From positions 53,391 through 117,390 of the forward strand of contig OMOD01000046.1 of assembly GCA_900290255.1 (NCBI GenBank): a stretch of 64,000 nucleotides of DNA, written 5' to 3'. Source of the stretch: Candidatus Sulfotelmatobacter kueseliae. GTDB lineage: Bacteria > Acidobacteriota > Terriglobia > Terriglobales > Acidobacteriaceae. How positions within the stretch are numbered: the stretch's first letter is position 1; every line of letters starts with the position of its first letter. Position numbers and translations under genes: made by a program. Positions 3,044-13,974 of this stretch are shown here, piece by piece. Below the pieces are notes generated by a model. The model saw only the letters and a program-made list of their open reading frames with translations, was not told where the DNA came from and ran no database searches.

Positions 3044-4516
3044 TTATTGCATGAATCCGCCCGGATCTTTCCTGGCGGTGCCGCCCACGGTCAGCCGATC
3101 GATCTTTAGCGTCGGAATGCCTACGCCGACCGGCACTGCCTGGCCGTCTTTGCCGCAGGTGCCGACGCCTTCGTCTAACTTCAGATCGTTCCCCACCATG
3201 GAGACTCGCGTCAGCACATCCGGGCCATTGCCAATCAGCGTTGCGCCTTTAATCGGCGCGGTAATCTGGCCGTCCTCAATCATGTAGGCTTCCGATGCCG
3301 AAAAGACGAATTTCCCGTTGGTGATATCCACCTGGCCGCCGCCGAAATTCACCGCGTAAACGCCGCGCTTCACCGAGCGAATGATGTCTTCGGGATTGTC
3401 CTGGCCCGCCAGCATGTACGTATTGGTCATGCGTGGCATGGGGATGTGCTCGTAGCTCTCACGGCGTCCGTTGCCGGTATCGGCGATGCCCATCAGTCGC
3501 GCCGAAAGTTTATCGCTCAGGTAGCCCTTCAGAATTCCTTTTTCGATGAGGACAGTTTCCTGGGTGGGCGCGCCTTCGTCATCCACGTTGAGCGAGCCGC
3601 GACGCCATGGCATCGTGCCGTTGTCAACCACCGTGCATTTTTCGCTGGCCACACGCTTGCCAACCAGACCGGCGAAGGCTGACGTTTTCTTGCGGTTAAA
3701 GTCGGCTTCGAGGCCGTGCCCGACCGCCTCGTGCAAAAGCACGCCCGGCCAACCCGGGCCCAGAACCACTTCCATTTCGCCGGCCGGAGCTTCACGCGCG
3801 TCGAGTTGCAGGATCGCCTGGCGGGCGGATTCGCGGGCAAAGAATTCGGGATTCTTCTCGCCGAAGAAAAAGTCGAGGGCGACTCGGCCGCCGCCGCCGG
3901 CAGTGCCGCGCGCAGAATTGCCGTCAGTCTTCGCGATCGAACTAACGTTCAAGCGGGCCAGGGGTTGGGAGTCCTCGGCAAAAGTTCCGTCGGAACCGAC
4001 AACAAGAATGTTGCGCAGTTCGTCGGCGTAGCTGGCACGCACTTCCTTGATGCGCGCGTCGTAGGCGCGGGCTGCTTTGTCGGCCCGCATCACCAGTTCG
4101 ACCTTGGCGGTGATTTCGGCGTCAACCGAGGGCAAAGTCACGGGATACAGGCTGCGGGCCGCGGCCTTTTGAAATCCGGCCACGGGCGTCTTGGCCGGAG
4201 CGCTGGCGATCAGCGCTGCCGTGCGCGCAGCGTGCACGATGCGGTCGGCGGAAAGATCGTCGGTGTAAGCATAGCCGGTGCGTTCCCCGGAGACCACTCG
4301 CACGCCACAGCCCGCGGAGATCCCCTGCGACGCCGACTTGACCATGGATTCGTCCACCATGAGCGACGTGGAGGAAAGATATTCGAAGTAGAGATCGGCG
4401 TAATCGCCGCCTGCCGAAAGTGCGGCTGCGAGATAGCGCTCGAGATCGCGCTCGGCGAGGCCGTAATGCTCGAAGAAAAAACGCTTCCTGTCTTTATTCA
4501 CGGAGTTTTGGTTCAC
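3044..4516 (-). CDS. tldD: Metalloprotease TldD
   Basis: 490 aa; HEAVGHGLEADFNRKKTSAFAGLVGKRVAS metal-binding motif; paired with tldE/pmbA. Confidence 0.92.
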   Translation of the reverse strand: MNQNSVNKDRKRFFFEHYGLAERDLERYLAAALSAGGDYADLYFEYLSSTSLMVDESMVKSASQGISAGCGVRVVSGERTGYAYTDDLSADRIVHAARTAALIASAPAKTPVAGFQKAAARSLYPVTLPSVDAEITAKVELVMRADKAARAYDARIKEVRASYADELRNILVVGSDGTFAEDSQPLARLNVSSIAKTDGNSARGTAGGGGRVALDFFFGEKNPEFFARESARQAILQLDAREAPAGEMEVVLGPGWPGVLLHEAVGHGLEADFNRKKTSAFAGLVGKRVASEKCTVVDNGTMPWRRGSLNVDDEGAPTQETVLIEKGILKGYLSDKLSARLMGIADTGNGRRESYEHIPMPRMTNTYMLAGQDNPEDIIRSVKRGVYAVNFGGGQVDITNGKFVFSASEAYMIEDGQITAPIKGATLIGNGPDVLTRVSMVGNDLKLDEGVGTCGKDGQAVPVGVGIPTLKIDRLTVGGTARKDPGGFMQ

Positions 4517-7707: not shown

Positions 7708-9855
7708 ATGGAAGGAAATATTTCCCGCGTCGTTCGCCTCGGTGCAGGTCTACTAGGAGTCGTGACCCTGGGATGGATTTTGACTGGCCAGGCGGCCCAA
7801 CCCATCCTGGAGGGCCTGCCCACGGACTGGACTCACCGGCACGTCATTTTCTCCCAGCCCGCGACGGCAGAGGAGACCGCGCGCATGGCGGGGGATCCGC
7901 GCTACTGGCAGCAATGGTATCGGCAGAACGCAGTGCGCGTTCTCTCCTCCGATGCTGCGGCTTCACCCGACGCGACTTCCTGGGGCATCAGGCGGACCGC
8001 TCGGCGGGCTGGCAGCCAGATTCATGCCGACTGGTCTCAGGCCCTTGGCGCCGGTGGCACCCTCGGCGCGGGCAACTTTGCCGCCAAGTATTCCTTCGGC
8101 ATTACGACAGCCAACTGCGGCAACGCGATCGCTCCGGCCGCTCCGGACTTCGTGGTTTTCAGCACCGGTCTTACGGGTGCGGCGAATCAGGCCAGCGTCA
8201 TCGCTTTTGACAATCTCTATTCCGGATGCACCCCACCTGTACCTTCCACCTATTGGGCCTACAACACCGGCGGGCAGATTCTTACTTCTCCAGTATTCTC
8301 GCGCGACGGCTCGCAGATCGCTTTTGTGCAAACCAGTGGCGGCGTAGCCAGCCTGGTTGTGCTGAAGTGGGCGGCTTCTACCGGTACCCTGGGCAGTCCT
8401 GCGACCCCGGCCGTCATGACTACGATCGCTTTAAAGAGCGGTACCGGGACTGCGACCGCCGATACAACGTCGTCCGTTTTCAATGACTACGTCAGCGACA
8501 CCGCTTGGGTGGGTGACGGCAGCGGCTGGCTCCATAAGTTCCATCCTGTGTTTACTGCCGCCCCGGTCGAAATCCGGACGGCTCCTTGGCCCGTTCAGGT
8601 TAGTACAACCGCCCATCCCGCCCTCAGCAGTCCTGTCTTTGACGGGGTGTCGGAGAATGTTTTTGTGGAAGATCAGGGCGGTTACCTCTATAGCGTAGTT
8701 GCCTCGGGCGTCTCAGCAGGGACGATCACCAAATCCGTGCAGGTAGATTTTGGCCCCTCGACCGCGGCTCTGGTATCGGGTCCTATTTTGGACAAGATTG
8801 CCGAGGAGGTGTATGCCTTTTCCTCCAACGATGGCAGCACGAATTGTGCAGCTGGAACGGCGCCGTGCTCGGCAGTCTACAAATTCCCTGCCACTTTCAC
8901 CGCCGCCACGATCCCCGCGGAAATTACTGTCGGCACCAGCAGCGCAACCGCCAATCCGCTGTATGACGGCGCCTTCGACAACGAGTTCTACTCTTCGCCT
9001 ACCCGCACGGGAAACCTTTACGTCTGTGGAAATACAGGGCTAAACCCGAGGCTGTACCAGGTGCAAATGCTGGCCGGAGCTTTTCATCTTTCCGGAGAGG
9101 TTGCACCGTTGACGCCCGCTGCAGATCATGTCGCGTGTTCCCCCGTTTCCGACATACTGAACCCAACCGCCTCGGCAGGTGCCCCCGAGGAGCGGGTGTT
9201 CTTTGGTGTGACAAATTTCGCCCACCCGACAGCATGTACCCCTCATGGGTGTGCCCAGAGTTTCGTCAGTATGCCGTGGCTGTCCAAGACGACCTACACG
9301 GTGGGCCAAGAGATCCTGATTTACCGGCCTGCAAACGGCGCGCTCGACGTCAATGTGGCTATCGTGGCAGGCACCTCGGGGACGAACGTGCCTGCATGGC
9401 CGAACGCGGCGGGTACGGCTACGGTCGATGGCAGCGTTAGCTGGCTGAACCAGGGAGTCGCCCAGTTTACTGTGATGGCAGCTTGGGCAGCTGGCCATGC
9501 CTACGCCTTGCACACCCGTATTCTCGACAGCAATGGCAACGTCGAGGTGGTGACCATTGCGGGGACTTCCGGTGGTACAGCGCCGACGAACTGGGCCACA
9601 ACTGCCGGCGGGACCACCGTGGACGGCACGCCGCCGTCGCCTCCAGCAGTGACTTGGACCAATGCCGGTCCCTTGCCCAGCGCCGCTCTGCTTGCGACCG
9701 GAGGCACGAGCGGAATTATCATCGACAACACGGTGAGCACGGGAACGCTGGCCGGAGCTTCGGAGCTATACTTCACCCCTTTGGCCAATGAGAATTGCCC
9801 GATAGCACCAGCCAGCGGGTGCGCAGTGCAGGCATCGCAGTCGGCGTTAAAATAG
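7708..9855 (+). CDS. Large secreted protein, probable beta-propeller-like body plus two C-terminal ~60-aa tandem modules; first gene of putative RiPP operon
   Basis: GAGGAG at 7695-7700 precedes ATG 7708; hydrophobic N-terminal signal (VVRLGAGLLGVVTLGWILTGQAAQ); ends 23 bp before the precursor-like small ORF. Confidence 0.8.
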   Translation: MEGNISRVVRLGAGLLGVVTLGWILTGQAAQPILEGLPTDWTHRHVIFSQPATAEETARMAGDPRYWQQWYRQNAVRVLSSDAAASPDATSWGIRRTARRAGSQIHADWSQALGAGGTLGAGNFAAKYSFGITTANCGNAIAPAAPDFVVFSTGLTGAANQASVIAFDNLYSGCTPPVPSTYWAYNTGGQILTSPVFSRDGSQIAFVQTSGGVASLVVLKWAASTGTLGSPATPAVMTTIALKSGTGTATADTTSSVFNDYVSDTAWVGDGSGWLHKFHPVFTAAPVEIRTAPWPVQVSTTAHPALSSPVFDGVSENVFVEDQGGYLYSVVASGVSAGTITKSVQVDFGPSTAALVSGPILDKIAEEVYAFSSNDGSTNCAAGTAPCSAVYKFPATFTAATIPAEITVGTSSATANPLYDGAFDNEFYSSPTRTGNLYVCGNTGLNPRLYQVQMLAGAFHLSGEVAPLTPAADHVACSPVSDILNPTASAGAPEERVFFGVTNFAHPTACTPHGCAQSFVSMPWLSKTTYTVGQEILIYRPANGALDVNVAIVAGTSGTNVPAWPNAAGTATVDGSVSWLNQGVAQFTVMAAWAAGHAYALHTRILDSNGNVEVVTIAGTSGGTAPTNWATTAGGTTVDGTPPSPPAVTWTNAGPLPSAALLATGGTSGIIIDNTVSTGTLAGASELYFTPLANENCPIAPASGCAVQASQSALK
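9271..9669 (+). repeat. Two tandem W...G...VAGTSG...P.W....G.TTVDG...W.N.G modules encoded inside the 7708-9855 protein
   Basis: MPWLSKTTYTVGQEILIYRPANGALDVNVAIVAGTSGTNVPAWPNAAGTATVDGSVSWLNQG versus MAAWAAGHAYALHTRILDSNGNVEVVTIAGTSGGTAPTNWATTAGGTTVDGTPPSPPAVTWTNAG. Confidence 0.75.
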
Positions 9856-9878: not shown

Positions 9879-10046
9879 ATGACCATGAACGATGTGTCCT
9901 CCGACAATCCGCGCACTCCGGCGACCAAGAAGCCGTACGAAAAGCCGTCTTTTCGCTACGAAAAGGTATTTGTGACCACCGCTCTTTTCTGCGGGAAGAT
10001 GAACACGACGCAACTCAGCTGCACTCACAACCTCAGTGCGTCATGA
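9879..10046 (+). CDS. Putative RiPP precursor peptide (55 aa)
   Basis: MTMNDVSSDNPRTPATKKPYEKPSFRYEKVFVTTALFCGKMNTTQLSCTHNLSAS; stop overlaps the peptidase start (ATGA at 10043-10046); followed by peptidase, HprK-like, PqqD-like and radical SAM genes. Confidence 0.75.
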   Translation: MTMNDVSSDNPRTPATKKPYEKPSFRYEKVFVTTALFCGKMNTTQLSCTHNLSAS

Positions 10047-10522
10047 AGCCTTCTCCACTGCTATTCGATGGTAAGCACGCCGTCAAATGCGAACTGGCGA
10101 GCGAGGTTCTGCGGTCGTCGGGGACCTTGCGCCTGCGGGTGATGGGCTGGAGCATGCTGCCCGCCGTGTGGCCCGGCGACACACTGGTGATTGAGCGCAT
10201 CGAGAGCGGCGGCGTTTCTGAAGGAGACATTGTGCTGTTTGCTCGCGATCGTCGCCTCTTCGCTCACCGCGTGCTGGCGAAGGGCAGCCCCGCCGGAGAT
10301 TCAACAATTCTGACCCGGGGCGACGCGATGCCCCAGCCCGATCCGCCCGTGGGAGATCGCGATCTACTGGGAAGAGTTGTTTTTATCCTGCGGGATGGAA
10401 AATGTATTGAGCCGAGCAAGACGCCGCGCTTTTCCGAGCGCGCGCTCTCGGCTGTGGTTCGAAATTCGGAAATCGCTGCCCGTGTCGTTGTGGGCGTACA
10501 CGGCATGCGCCAGACTTCATAG
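10043..10522 (+). CDS. S24/S26 (signal peptidase-like) serine peptidase, RiPP-operon associated
   Basis: LRVMGWSMLPAVWPGDTLVIERIESGGVSEGDIVLFARDRRLFAHRVL...ILTRGDAM: GxSMxPxxxPGD nucleophile box plus HRV and TRGD boxes. Confidence 0.85.
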   Translation: MKPSPLLFDGKHAVKCELASEVLRSSGTLRLRVMGWSMLPAVWPGDTLVIERIESGGVSEGDIVLFARDRRLFAHRVLAKGSPAGDSTILTRGDAMPQPDPPVGDRDLLGRVVFILRDGKCIEPSKTPRFSERALSAVVRNSEIAARVVVGVHGMRQTS

Positions 10523-10537
10523 GAGTTGGGTTTTCCC

Positions 10538-11353
10538 TTGCCAGAGTTAACCGCCGAAGTTGAACGCTTCAGCCTCGTGATTGCAATCGGAGGCATGCCC
10601 ATCCGTGTCAACACGGCCGATCCGGACTTTCTCGCCTTGCTCGAGGGCCGCTATTCGGGTTTTCTGGGCTCGTCGGAGAATGCGGAAGTGGAATTCGAGG
10701 TTGAGCTCGTTCGGCCCGGCTTTGCCGATCCCGCGGCTGAAGTGCGTGTCACCCATCGCATGGGCCGGTGGTCGTTGACGCGCGGCGATTTTCGCGCCGA
10801 ATGGGAGCCGGCGTCCCGGCGCGGCTGGATTCGCCAGTCAGCCAATCCCTACTCGATCGATGCCGTTCTTCGGATCGTTCATTCGCTGGTTCTGGCCCGG
10901 CAGGGAGGCTTCCTGCTGCATTCGGCCAGCGCTCTGCGCAATGGGAAGGCATTTCTTTTCGCGGGAGTTTCCGGCGCAGGAAAGACCACGATTTCCCGTC
11001 TGGCTCCTCCCGACGCCACGCTTTTGACCGACGAGATTTCTTATATCCGCAGGCACGACGCAGGCTATGTTGCGTTCGGTACTCCGTTTACCGGGGAACT
11101 GGCCAAGCTGGGCGAAAACGTTTCGGCGCCGTTAGCGGCGCTCTATTTGCTGGCGCAAGGTCCGGAGAACCGGATCGACCCGGTTGCCCCCGGCGAGGCC
11201 GCCCGCTCCCTTCTTGCTAATGTTTTGTTTTTCGCGGAAGATGAGGAACTGGTGCGGGCGGCATTCCATTCCGCTTTCGAGTTCGTAAGCCGGGTGCCGG
11301 TCTCGCGCCTGACATTTGTGCCCGATGCCCGGGTGTGGGAGTTGATTCGATGA
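10538..11353 (+). CDS. HPr kinase-like protein (RiPP-associated HprK-related kinase)
   Basis: GGFLLHSASALRNGKAFLFAGVSGAGKTTISRL...LLTDEISYI: P-loop and HprK-like context; probable TTG start at 10538 downstream of TAGGAG (ORF track start 10526). Confidence 0.8.
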   Translation: MPELTAEVERFSLVIAIGGMPIRVNTADPDFLALLEGRYSGFLGSSENAEVEFEVELVRPGFADPAAEVRVTHRMGRWSLTRGDFRAEWEPASRRGWIRQSANPYSIDAVLRIVHSLVLARQGGFLLHSASALRNGKAFLFAGVSGAGKTTISRLAPPDATLLTDEISYIRRHDAGYVAFGTPFTGELAKLGENVSAPLAALYLLAQGPENRIDPVAPGEAARSLLANVLFFAEDEELVRAAFHSAFEFVSRVPVSRLTFVPDARVWELIR

Positions 11354-11676
11354 GCAGGCTTTTTGTGGCCCGGAATCCGCGGGTGGCGGCACGTTGTCTC
11401 GACGGCGAAATGATGATCATGTCCGCCCGGGATTCGACTCTCTTCACCCTGAACCGCACCGCCACCATCCTTTGGCAGGCGGCCGACGGAACCACGCCGC
11501 TGGATGAGATCGTGCAGTCTCGGATTTGCCCGGAATTCGAAGTTGAGCCCGCCGAGGCGCTCAAAGACGCCGAAACCCTGGCTCGTGAACTGGCCGGCCA
11601 TGAGATCCTGCAGATTTCCGAAGAACCGATTCCGCAACGGAATGCGCCGGGAGAATCACCAGGAGAATCCCGATGA
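11350..11676 (+). CDS. PqqD-like peptide chaperone / RiPP recognition element protein
   Basis: RNPRVAARCLDGEMMIMSARDSTLFTLNRTATILWQAADGTTPLDEIVQ...LARELAGHEIL: PqqD-like winged-helix pattern; ATGA overlap with both neighbours. Confidence 0.88.
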   Translation: MSRLFVARNPRVAARCLDGEMMIMSARDSTLFTLNRTATILWQAADGTTPLDEIVQSRICPEFEVEPAEALKDAETLARELAGHEILQISEEPIPQRNAPGESPGESR

Positions 11677-12782
11677 GCGGCCTCCTGGAGGAAATGACGG
11701 TAAGGGCGCTGGCCCGCAACATTCCGCTCAGCGTGCAGCTCGATCTGACCTACCGCTGCAATGAGCGCTGCGTTCACTGCTATCTCGACCATAACGACCA
11801 TGGCGAGATGACGACCGCGGAAATCAAGCACCTGCTCGACGAGATGGCCGACGCTGGTGTCTTCATTCTGACCCTGAGCGGCGGCGAAATTTTCCTGCGC
11901 AAGGATTTCTTCGAGATTTTCGAGTACGCCCGGCGGCGCTTAACGTTCTGCGTGAAGCTCAAGACCAACGCCATCCTGATTAAAGAGCGCGAGGCCGCCC
12001 GCATTCGCGATCTCGGCGTTGAATCCATCCAGATCAGCATTTATTCCCACCGCCCCGAAGTTCACGACGCCATCACGCTCGTGCCGGGCTCGCTCGAGCG
12101 CTCTTTGAATGCGATTCGCTTTCTCAAGTCCCAGGGGCTGCGCGTCGTCATTGCCAACGTGCTGATGACCCTGAATGCGCAGGACTATACCGGCGTTCGC
12201 GCCCTGGCCGACGAACTGGATGTCGACTGCACGCTCGATCCGACCATCACGCCCATGATGGATGGCAACCGTTCGGTGCTGAGCCTGAGCGTGGACCAGA
12301 GTGCCCTGCGGCAAGTCTTCCGCGACGGGGCGCTGGTGGGGAATGTGGACGAATTTTGCGCCATCCCGGCTCCGGCTCACGAGAATGATCTTGCGACCCT
12401 GCCCTGCAGCGCCAGCCACACCGCTTGCTATGTTTCGCCCTACGGCGATGTTTTTCCCTGCGTCCAGTTCCCTTTGCCCACCGGCAACGTGCGGAAGCAG
12501 CGGTTTATCGACATCTGGCGGCACTCGGATCAGATGAATGAAGTCCGTTCGATCCGCATGAAGGATCTGCCCACTTGCAGCCAGTGCACCCACGTGGCGA
12601 ATTGCACGCGCTGTCCGGGGCTGGCGTTTATGGAAGGAAACATGCGCGGGCCTTCCACGCAGGATTGCGAGAAGTCATTTGCGAGGACCGGAGTTCCGTC
12701 GGCGAATATGCTGGCGAAAGGGCGCAGGGCGGCGAATTTGATCCAAATTCGGTCGCTTCCGTCCCTTACCGCAACGGCTTGA
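11673..12782 (+). CDS. Radical SAM/SPASM peptide-modifying enzyme
   Basis: CNERCVHCYLDHND (CxxxCxxC) and a C-terminal Cys-rich SPASM region (ACYVSPYGDVFPCVQFPLPTGNVRKQRFIDIWRHS...CSQCTHVANCTRCPG). Confidence 0.93.
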   Translation: MSGLLEEMTVRALARNIPLSVQLDLTYRCNERCVHCYLDHNDHGEMTTAEIKHLLDEMADAGVFILTLSGGEIFLRKDFFEIFEYARRRLTFCVKLKTNAILIKEREAARIRDLGVESIQISIYSHRPEVHDAITLVPGSLERSLNAIRFLKSQGLRVVIANVLMTLNAQDYTGVRALADELDVDCTLDPTITPMMDGNRSVLSLSVDQSALRQVFRDGALVGNVDEFCAIPAPAHENDLATLPCSASHTACYVSPYGDVFPCVQFPLPTGNVRKQRFIDIWRHSDQMNEVRSIRMKDLPTCSQCTHVANCTRCPGLAFMEGNMRGPSTQDCEKSFARTGVPSANMLAKGRRAANLIQIRSLPSLTATA

Positions 12783-12786
12783 GTCC

Positions 12787-13974
12787 GTGCCTGCGGGTTC
12801 TACCGAAATCATGCCCGGGACTGGCCCCACCCTCGATACCGAGTGGTCCATTCTGCTAGCCGCCTGTTCCGCGATAGCACCCGAACAAAAACGAGAGCGC
12901 CTTTTGCCGCTCCTTCAGCAAACGGTCCGGTGGCAAAGGCTGTTCGCACTTGCCGATCACCACGGCACTCAGCCACTTCTATATCAGGCGCTCTCCCGCC
13001 TTGAGAACACGGTTCCTCCCGTCGAGATGCATTCGCTGAGGCAAAGCTGCCAGGCGAATCTGCGCAAGGCCCTGTTGCTTTCGCGCGAGTTGATTCGAAT
13101 CATGGAGCATCTTGCCACGCTTGACATCGAAGTGATGCCCTACAAAGGCCCGGCTCTGGCGGAATTGCTTTATACAGATATCGCTCTGCGGCAGTCCGGC
13201 GACATCGACCTGTTGATTCATCCGCGGGACCTGCCTTCGATCCTTGATGCGGCCCGTGAACTCGGGTACGCGCCGCACCAACATCTCTCCGCCTGGGAAG
13301 AACGCGCCTATCTGAAATCGGGATACGAATATGCCTTCGATGGCCCGGCCGGGCCGAATCTCCTGGAACTGCAATGGGCGATTCAGCCGCGGTTCTACGC
13401 CGTTGATTTCGACATGAACGGTTTGTTCCAACGCGCAGTCACCCTCACCGTGGCCGGCCGACAGATGAAGACGCCGTCACCCGCGGACTATTTTCTGATT
13501 CTGTCGCTGCATGCGGCCAAGCATGTGTGGGGAAGGCTGGTCTGGCTGTGCGACATCGCGCAGCTGATGAGCAGGCCAGGCCTCGATTGGAACTGGATCG
13601 GATCGCAAGCGCAAGACCTGGGCATCGCGCGCCTCTTGCGCATCACCCTGCTCGCGGCGCACCAGTTGCTGGGCGCTTCGATCCCTGCTGCAGCCGAGCA
13701 GACCATCCCGGAAGATCGTGCGACACCTGCATTGGTGCAAGAAATTCAGGCTCACATCGTCAGCGAGTCCGCCTTCAACGTCGAGTCGTTGGCCTACTTT
13801 CGCCTGATGCTGCGCCTGCGCGAAAGACGCTCCGATCGGCTGCGGTTTCTCGCCCGTCTGGTGTTTACTCCCGGCCCCGGCGAATGGGCGGCGGTTCGAC
13901 TGCCGCGGCTGCTGTTCCCCTTGTATCCCCTGGTCCGGCTTGCGCGTCTGGCGACGAGGCCGATCCGCACTTGA
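12787..13974 (+). CDS. Nucleotidyltransferase family protein (PF14907-like)
   Basis: VMPYKGPALAELLYTDIALRQSGDIDLLIHPRDLPSIL; 5 bp after the radical SAM stop. Confidence 0.85.
   Translation: MPAGSTEIMPGTGPTLDTEWSILLAACSAIAPEQKRERLLPLLQQTVRWQRLFALADHHGTQPLLYQALSRLENTVPPVEMHSLRQSCQANLRKALLLSRELIRIMEHLATLDIEVMPYKGPALAELLYTDIALRQSGDIDLLIHPRDLPSILDAARELGYAPHQHLSAWEERAYLKSGYEYAFDGPAGPNLLELQWAIQPRFYAVDFDMNGLFQRAVTLTVAGRQMKTPSPADYFLILSLHAAKHVWGRLVWLCDIAQLMSRPGLDWNWIGSQAQDLGIARLLRITLLAAHQLLGASIPAAAEQTIPEDRATPALVQEIQAHIVSESAFNVESLAYFRLMLRLRERRSDRLRFLARLVFTPGPGEWAAVRLPRLLFPLYPLVRLARLATRPIRT

Follow-up and report, generated by a model that had tools for sequence, protein, structure and literature searches.

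A candidate family of phosphorylated, radical SAM-modified RiPPs linked to a secreted β-propeller in Acidobacteriota

The closest described relatives of the system reported here are the linear polyphosphorylated peptides (LPP), a type of RiPP, and the kinase-type lasso peptides. The LPP system (LppA/K/B/S/D/N) of Paenibacillus was described in 2026 in the Bacillota and is given as restricted to that phylum; LppS carries the triad S29/H68/D93, LppA is cleaved between FET and the core, and the text of the paper never uses the term radical SAM (PMC13381572). Among lasso systems, the kinases PadeK, ThcoK and SyanK phosphorylate a C-terminal Ser that is conserved in precursors accompanied by a kinase gene, and PsmN has been linked to hexoses added on the C-terminal phospho-site Ser (PMC9266682). 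A third point of comparison is quinohemoprotein amine dehydrogenase (QHNDH): a radical SAM enzyme crosslinks its small subunit, which a serine protease cuts and which is exported (PMC7876137).

We have analysed a stretch of 64,000 nucleotides from the soil acidobacterium Candidatus Sulfotelmatobacter kueseliae (the window) and find that positions 9879..10046 (+ strand) almost certainly encode a RiPP precursor peptide. The ORF runs from an ATG to a TGA, and its 55-residue translation reads exactly as an earlier note on this DNA had stated, with YEKPSF at residues 20-25 (the YxxPxF motif), C38 and C48 in a C-x9-C arrangement and Ser as the last residue. The predicted leader comprises residues 1-33, ending ...KKPYEKPSFRYEKVFVT, and the predicted core residues 34-55, TALFCGKMNTTQLSCTHNLSAS. 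The start of the precursor lies 24 bases beyond the stop of a gene for a secreted β-propeller (SBP), and the ATG of a peptidase gene at 10043 falls within the precursor's TCA-TGA end, which places the precursor in a tight operon. The pattern Y..P.{14}C.K.{4,16}C.{3,12}S-stop matches once in the window, against a mean of 0 in 200 mononucleotide shuffles; this, together with a paralogue in the same 5.39 Mb genome (44% identical; C50:2828-2986) and the 143 homologous tails described below, argues that the precursor is not a chance ORF. It has no match in NCBIfam or Pfam, and no RNA element in the cluster was found in Rfam.

On the 3' side of the precursor there follow, in order and on the same strand, genes for an S24/S26 peptidase, an HprK-like kinase, a PqqD protein and a SPASM radical SAM enzyme, and in the window an NTP_transf_5 gene closes the series. 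The peptidase (10043..10522; PF00717, TIGR02228) is an archaeal/ER-type signal peptidase I-like (SpI-like) serine protease and the predicted leader peptidase; its profile aligns to SEC11A/C, and Ser37, His75 and Asp100 are invariant in 44 homologues. The kinase (10541..11353; possible TTG starts at 10526 or 10541) has weak sequence matches to ScmC and HprK_rel_A, and a sequence search against the PDB was also weak; it was the structure model (pLDDT 90) that settled its fold as PEPCK/HprK, through Foldseek matches to PEPCK (E 7e-10) and to HprK 1kkl (E 1e-4). It has a conserved P-loop, with GVSGAGKT as Walker A, and invariant His127, Asp164 and Glu165; matched by sequence position rather than by structure superposition, the His-Lys-Asp-Asp set of the lasso kinases would read His-Lys-Asp-Glu here, with His127, Lys148 and Asp164 conserved and Glu165 as the fourth residue. 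The PqqD-family protein (11350..11676; PF05402, E 1.4e-11, 45 bits) is a predicted leader-binding RRE whose profile matches TbiB1 (E 2e-8), the lasso PqqD chaperone 9x90 and TfuB1. In the radical SAM/SPASM peptide maturase (11673..12782; PF04055, PF13186) the CxxxCxxC motif and seven SPASM cysteines are invariant in 31 homologues. The nucleotidyltransferase (12811..13974, with the ORF open from a GTG at 12787; PF14907, E 3e-59) is optional and, by context, LppN/PsmN-like. Among 51 well-covered loci, those with enough flanking sequence, we find PqqD at 42, the radical SAM gene at 41, the S26 peptidase at 41, the HprK-like kinase at 40, the SBP at 38 and the NTP_transf_5 gene at 27, and all four core genes (peptidase, kinase, PqqD and radical SAM) are present at 40. 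Among the window genes checked we saw no dedicated exporter, and across the 81 loci neither an exporter nor any further gene cluster is conserved about as often as these genes. We also note a gene for a TldD/PmbA metallopeptidase (PF19289), likely housekeeping, on the opposite strand about 5 kb upstream (window 3044-4516); TldD/E proteases process some RiPP leaders. Elsewhere, an uninterrupted frame at L080 6531-9344 links a short stretch of NTP_transf_5 domain to a complete SBP whose signal peptide is internal to the frame, as either overlapping genes or a fusion; we did not count it as a true fusion.

A profile built from two sequences recovered clear precursor homologues in many genomes of the class, and in an alignment of 27 precursors Y20, P23, E28, F31, A35, L36, C38, G39, K40, C48 and S55 are invariant. 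Scanning public genomes with the pattern F[EV][TV]xAL[SAT]CGK gave 79 further loci; conservation inside this pattern is thus partly selected, and the far C-terminus lies outside it. A later profile search of all loci collected by then yielded 143 distinct tails (Tyr motif to stop), anchored on YxxP. In every one of the 143 the first core Cys lies 18 positions past the YxxP Tyr, two Cys are present in 141, and the last residue is Ser in 140, Gln in two and Thr in one, with a slight bias toward Ser-ending tails possible since the profile includes the terminal Ser. The earlier note had held that its reading would fail if the Cys pair, the leader motif or the terminal Ser were not conserved; all three are, and the proposal that YxxPxF marks a leader of the type bound by PqqD-type RREs is supported, with Tyr and Pro in 143/143 of these YxxP-anchored tails. 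The C-x9-C spacing is indeed the common form (102/143), but it is not general, as other spacings range from C-x6-C to C-x13-C and one divergent member (...ALHCPNKGISS) has a single Cys; we therefore rejected a fixed C-x9-C as a mark of the family.

Since core length, Cys spacing and the penultimate residue (12 kinds among the 143 tails) all vary, the Ser appears bound to the C-terminus and not to an alignment column. The single-Cys member ends in GISS, and members from other classes also end in Ser. The sole class-1 precursor with a different end (L106/L147) was rejected as a true exception, since in this gene codons for Thr-Ser come immediately after a premature stop. The terminal Ser codon is TCN in 113/115 class-1 members, so the codon box does not independently prove that Ser was selected repeatedly, although its third position varies freely. 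Purifying selection acts on the precursor: pooled pN/pS over 310 pairs is 0.24 (leader 0.17, core 0.29), values that are rough because synonymous sites are near saturation. A second precursor class, with the form YEKPAIIHTEKIEARAVxCxK...C..GPIxS, occurs in other Acidobacteriota. Some loci have more than one precursor: at L200 (4125/7146) and at L202 (5991/8923) a single cassette region carries two near-identical precursors separated by about 3 kb, an apparent duplication, and two second-class precursors (EARAVxCxK...GPIxS) stand in tandem at L207 5195-6133, where the same region encodes an FG-GAP repeat protein. L140 and L158 are decaying copies, one having Tyr in place of the first Cys and a C-terminus that runs on, the other with a stop inside the leader.

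We find that the kinase follows the precursor closely, which agrees with the association that the earlier note had drawn from the terminal Ser. In 50 genomes picked by precursor presence, the kinase is found in 25/25 with a precursor and 0/25 without; across 299 genomes of the class (precursor E < 1e-3, kinase E <= 1e-40) it is found in 44/45 with a precursor and 2/254 without (Fisher p ~4e-49, ignoring the relatedness of the genomes). Two of the three discordant genomes reflect thresholds, since G283 does have a precursor and G271 does have a kinase at its locus. Within a single genus (g6) one genome has precursor, kinase and SBP (G290) and two have none of the three (G083 and G287), and HprK-like genes are present in 17/17 genomes with the second precursor class. 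We consider it likely, with good confidence, that the kinase acts on the terminal Ser of the precursor.

We present evidence that a further protein, absent from the earlier note, belongs to the precursor system. The SBP (7708..9855, + strand, with the ORF open from 7693) is a secreted protein of about 715 residues with a signal peptide; its AlphaFold model is a β-propeller (mean pLDDT 84.7), its profile matches BamB/PQQ-type propellers, and a structure search returned generic β-propellers only, pointing to no enzyme class. It occurs in all 25 genomes with a precursor and in none of the 25 without, a count that is uncorrected for relatedness. In 17 genomes in which we placed the precursors there are 35 matches, two of them weak or decayed, with up to four precursors per genome, and 19 have an SBP within 1 kb. 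The orphan precursors, those with no cassette near, have an SBP within 1 kb in 13/19 cases. The radical SAM enzyme of this family is a single gene in 15 of the 17 genomes and two genes in the other two, and a strong kinase match occurs once per genome except in one genome with two. Given such scattered pairs and usually one cassette per genome, maturation in trans is probable for the orphan precursor-SBP pairs. Against the link, 9 of the 40 loci with a cassette show no SBP inside 9 kb, and SBPs outnumber precursors in several genomes. One genome (G649) has precursors but no detected SBP, and there, at L066, two precursors (10103 and 13443) flank a 1039-residue pro-kumamolisin-domain protein, from which we suggest that other secreted proteins may replace the SBP as partner. 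Precursors of the second class (GPIxS ends) lie near C25 peptidase or FG-GAP proteins, often with no adjacent kinase or peptidase. A recurring arrangement is a precursor beside a large secreted protein. The co-occurrence of cassette and SBP across related bacteria suggests that the finished peptide works with the SBP, and on balance we favour such a joint function, in a mode that may take several forms.

The precursor family with its invariant residues, the cassette, the shared occurrence of precursor, kinase and SBP, and the orphan pairs, all read from sequence, are probably best explained by an undescribed family of phosphorylated, radical SAM-modified RiPPs that serves a secreted propeller. 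In such a pathway the PqqD protein (RRE) would bind the YxxPxF part of the leader and present the peptide, the HprK-like kinase would phosphorylate, and perhaps polyphosphorylate, the C-terminal Ser, and the SPASM radical SAM enzyme would modify the core around the invariant Cys-x-Lys. A thioether from Cys would be the most likely product of this last step, but our prediction of it is tentative, since other crosslinks near Cys-x-Lys are possible. The Ser/His/Asp SpI-like peptidase would cut after F-[EV]-T to give a core of about 22 residues, and the NTP_transf_5 enzyme, where present, might decorate the phospho-Ser. The product could then act with the SBP as a ligand, a prosthetic group or a small subunit, one cassette serving several precursor-SBP pairs at separate places in the genome. 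Two further points weigh against this explanation: no dedicated exporter was found that would bring the peptide to a secreted protein, and the kinase has Glu where lasso kinases carry their second Asp. A more specific form of this proposal, in which the mature peptide is a phosphorylated, radical SAM-crosslinked prosthetic peptide or small subunit of secreted propellers, with a central cassette and scattered pairs, is conceivable and, as a whole, rather doubtful.

The system has much in common with LPP. Both have a YxxP...FET leader, a discrete PqqD-type RRE, an HprK-like kinase, an NTP transferase and a Ser/His/Asp peptidase of the archaeal SpI type, with a triad spacing near that of LppS and a His-Asp spacing of 25 in both. 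In 100 ungapped class-1 tails the leader motif reads Tyr (100), Pro (100), Phe or Tyr (100), Glu (85; Val in 15) and Thr (93), and the window has FVT; the YxxPxF that the earlier note compared with lasso leaders is present, but the leader runs on to F-[EV]-T and is thereby closer to LPP. Because leader and peptidase both match LPP, in which LppA is cut at FET (PMC13381572), cleavage is predicted after VFVT33, and cutting by the SpI-like peptidase after F-[EV]-T is very probable. These parallels might be taken to mean that the locus encodes an LPP-type RiPP proper, linear and mainly (poly)phosphorylated, with the radical SAM enzyme as minor tailoring and the SBP as a co-regulated but independent neighbour. 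We think this unlikely. The radical SAM gene recurs as regularly as the kinase gene (41 against 40 of 51 loci); the LPP phosphosite, core Ser3 (FETxxS), is Leu in 100/100 ungapped class-1 tails, while the Ser kept almost throughout here is C-terminal; the MsbA-like exporter of the LPP cluster has no counterpart among the window genes checked or among the genes widely conserved at the 81 loci; and the SBP both tracks the precursor and stays with orphan precursors. Unlike LPP, which is found in Bacillota, the present system occurs in Acidobacteriota and Pseudomonadota and combines a constant SPASM radical SAM enzyme with a Cys-x-Lys core, usually with a second Cys, and a linked secreted β-propeller.

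Sactipeptides and ranthipeptides likewise have Cys in the core and a radical SAM enzyme of the SPASM type, the thioether being here a tentative prediction; they are not known to include a kinase or an SpI peptidase. QHNDH, whose β subunit is a β-propeller, offers a different parallel, in that its maturation (QhpC/D/E) likewise involves a small leader-bearing polypeptide, a radical SAM enzyme (making Cys thioethers in qhp) and a serine leader protease, a likeness of description. With this precedent (PMC7876137), the preferred explanation could be narrowed to a cofactor system like PQQ or cysteine tryptophylquinone, with the peptide as a redox or prosthetic group in the SBP, as the resemblance of the SBP profile to BamB/PQQ-type propellers, the strict co-occurrence of SBP and precursor and the presence of several SBPs per maturation cassette would fit. 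So narrow a version is improbable: the core has no conserved Trp or any other conserved aromatic residue, no ABC exporter as in qhp was found, and PQQ-like propellers are a broad fold to which the SBP has generic structural matches. The present system also differs from qhp in that it has no Trp for a quinone, a kinase and a PqqD protein are present, the product is far shorter and no cytochrome subunit was seen.

The product might instead be an antimicrobial or signalling peptide, with the SBP as an immunity, receptor or carrier protein. Core loops that vary between fixed ends would suit this, as would a secreted SBP that is often directly adjacent, and glycosyltransferase-like genes surround one locus or more (L066), LPP and paeninodin clusters being found near capsule genes. 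Since no exporter was found, the core is under purifying selection and several similar copies occur per genome, we regard such a role as a little less probable again. The last alternative, a lasso cluster, is what leader and kinase point to at first sight, and the earlier note drew its comparisons from lasso systems; it is highly improbable and was rejected: the YxxPxF leader, a PqqD protein closest to lasso B1 proteins of known structure and the terminal Ser with its kinase recall paeninodin, but neither a B2 transglutaminase-like peptidase nor an asparagine-synthetase-like cyclase was found by Pfam in the cassette or the window neighbours checked, the related loci share no conserved gene cluster of this kind, and the class-1 core has no conserved Asp/Glu at positions 7-9 to close a ring.

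What is shared with the kinase-type lasso systems (paeninodin PadeK, ThcoK, SyanK; pseudomycoidin PsmK/PsmN) is the C-terminal Ser, the HprK-like kinase, a nucleotidyltransferase homologue, a PqqD-type B1 and a YxxP-like leader; unlike those systems, this one has a radical SAM enzyme and an SpI-like peptidase in place of the B2 and cyclase, and Cys in the core. As a defining feature of each was looked for and not found, the system is a member of neither LPP nor the kinase-type lasso peptides, and the radical SAM enzyme is an addition relative to the features of both.

In a tree of 54 radical SAM sequences, a single clade (100/99) nested among those of Acidobacteriota unites seven sequences with Pseudomonadota titles, an eighth lying elsewhere, which suggests transfer out of Acidobacteriota to Pseudomonadota, with the proviso that titles of metagenome bins may be wrong. 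L066, titled Nevskia soli, was left out of this argument, as it groups with Acidobacteriota in the phylum sample of the genome collection. We found no description of an acidobacterial radical SAM/HprK RiPP in a literature search that mostly lay outside subscription papers. The family joins RiPP features that had until now been described separately: Cys in the core together with a radical SAM enzyme of the SPASM type, a leader peptidase that is SpI-like, and a C-terminal Ser accompanied by an HprK-like kinase. It also extends such systems to Acidobacteriota and, through a well-supported nested clade, to Pseudomonadota. If the peptide does prove to be prosthetic, it would represent a type of peptide-cofactor system that has so far gone undescribed.
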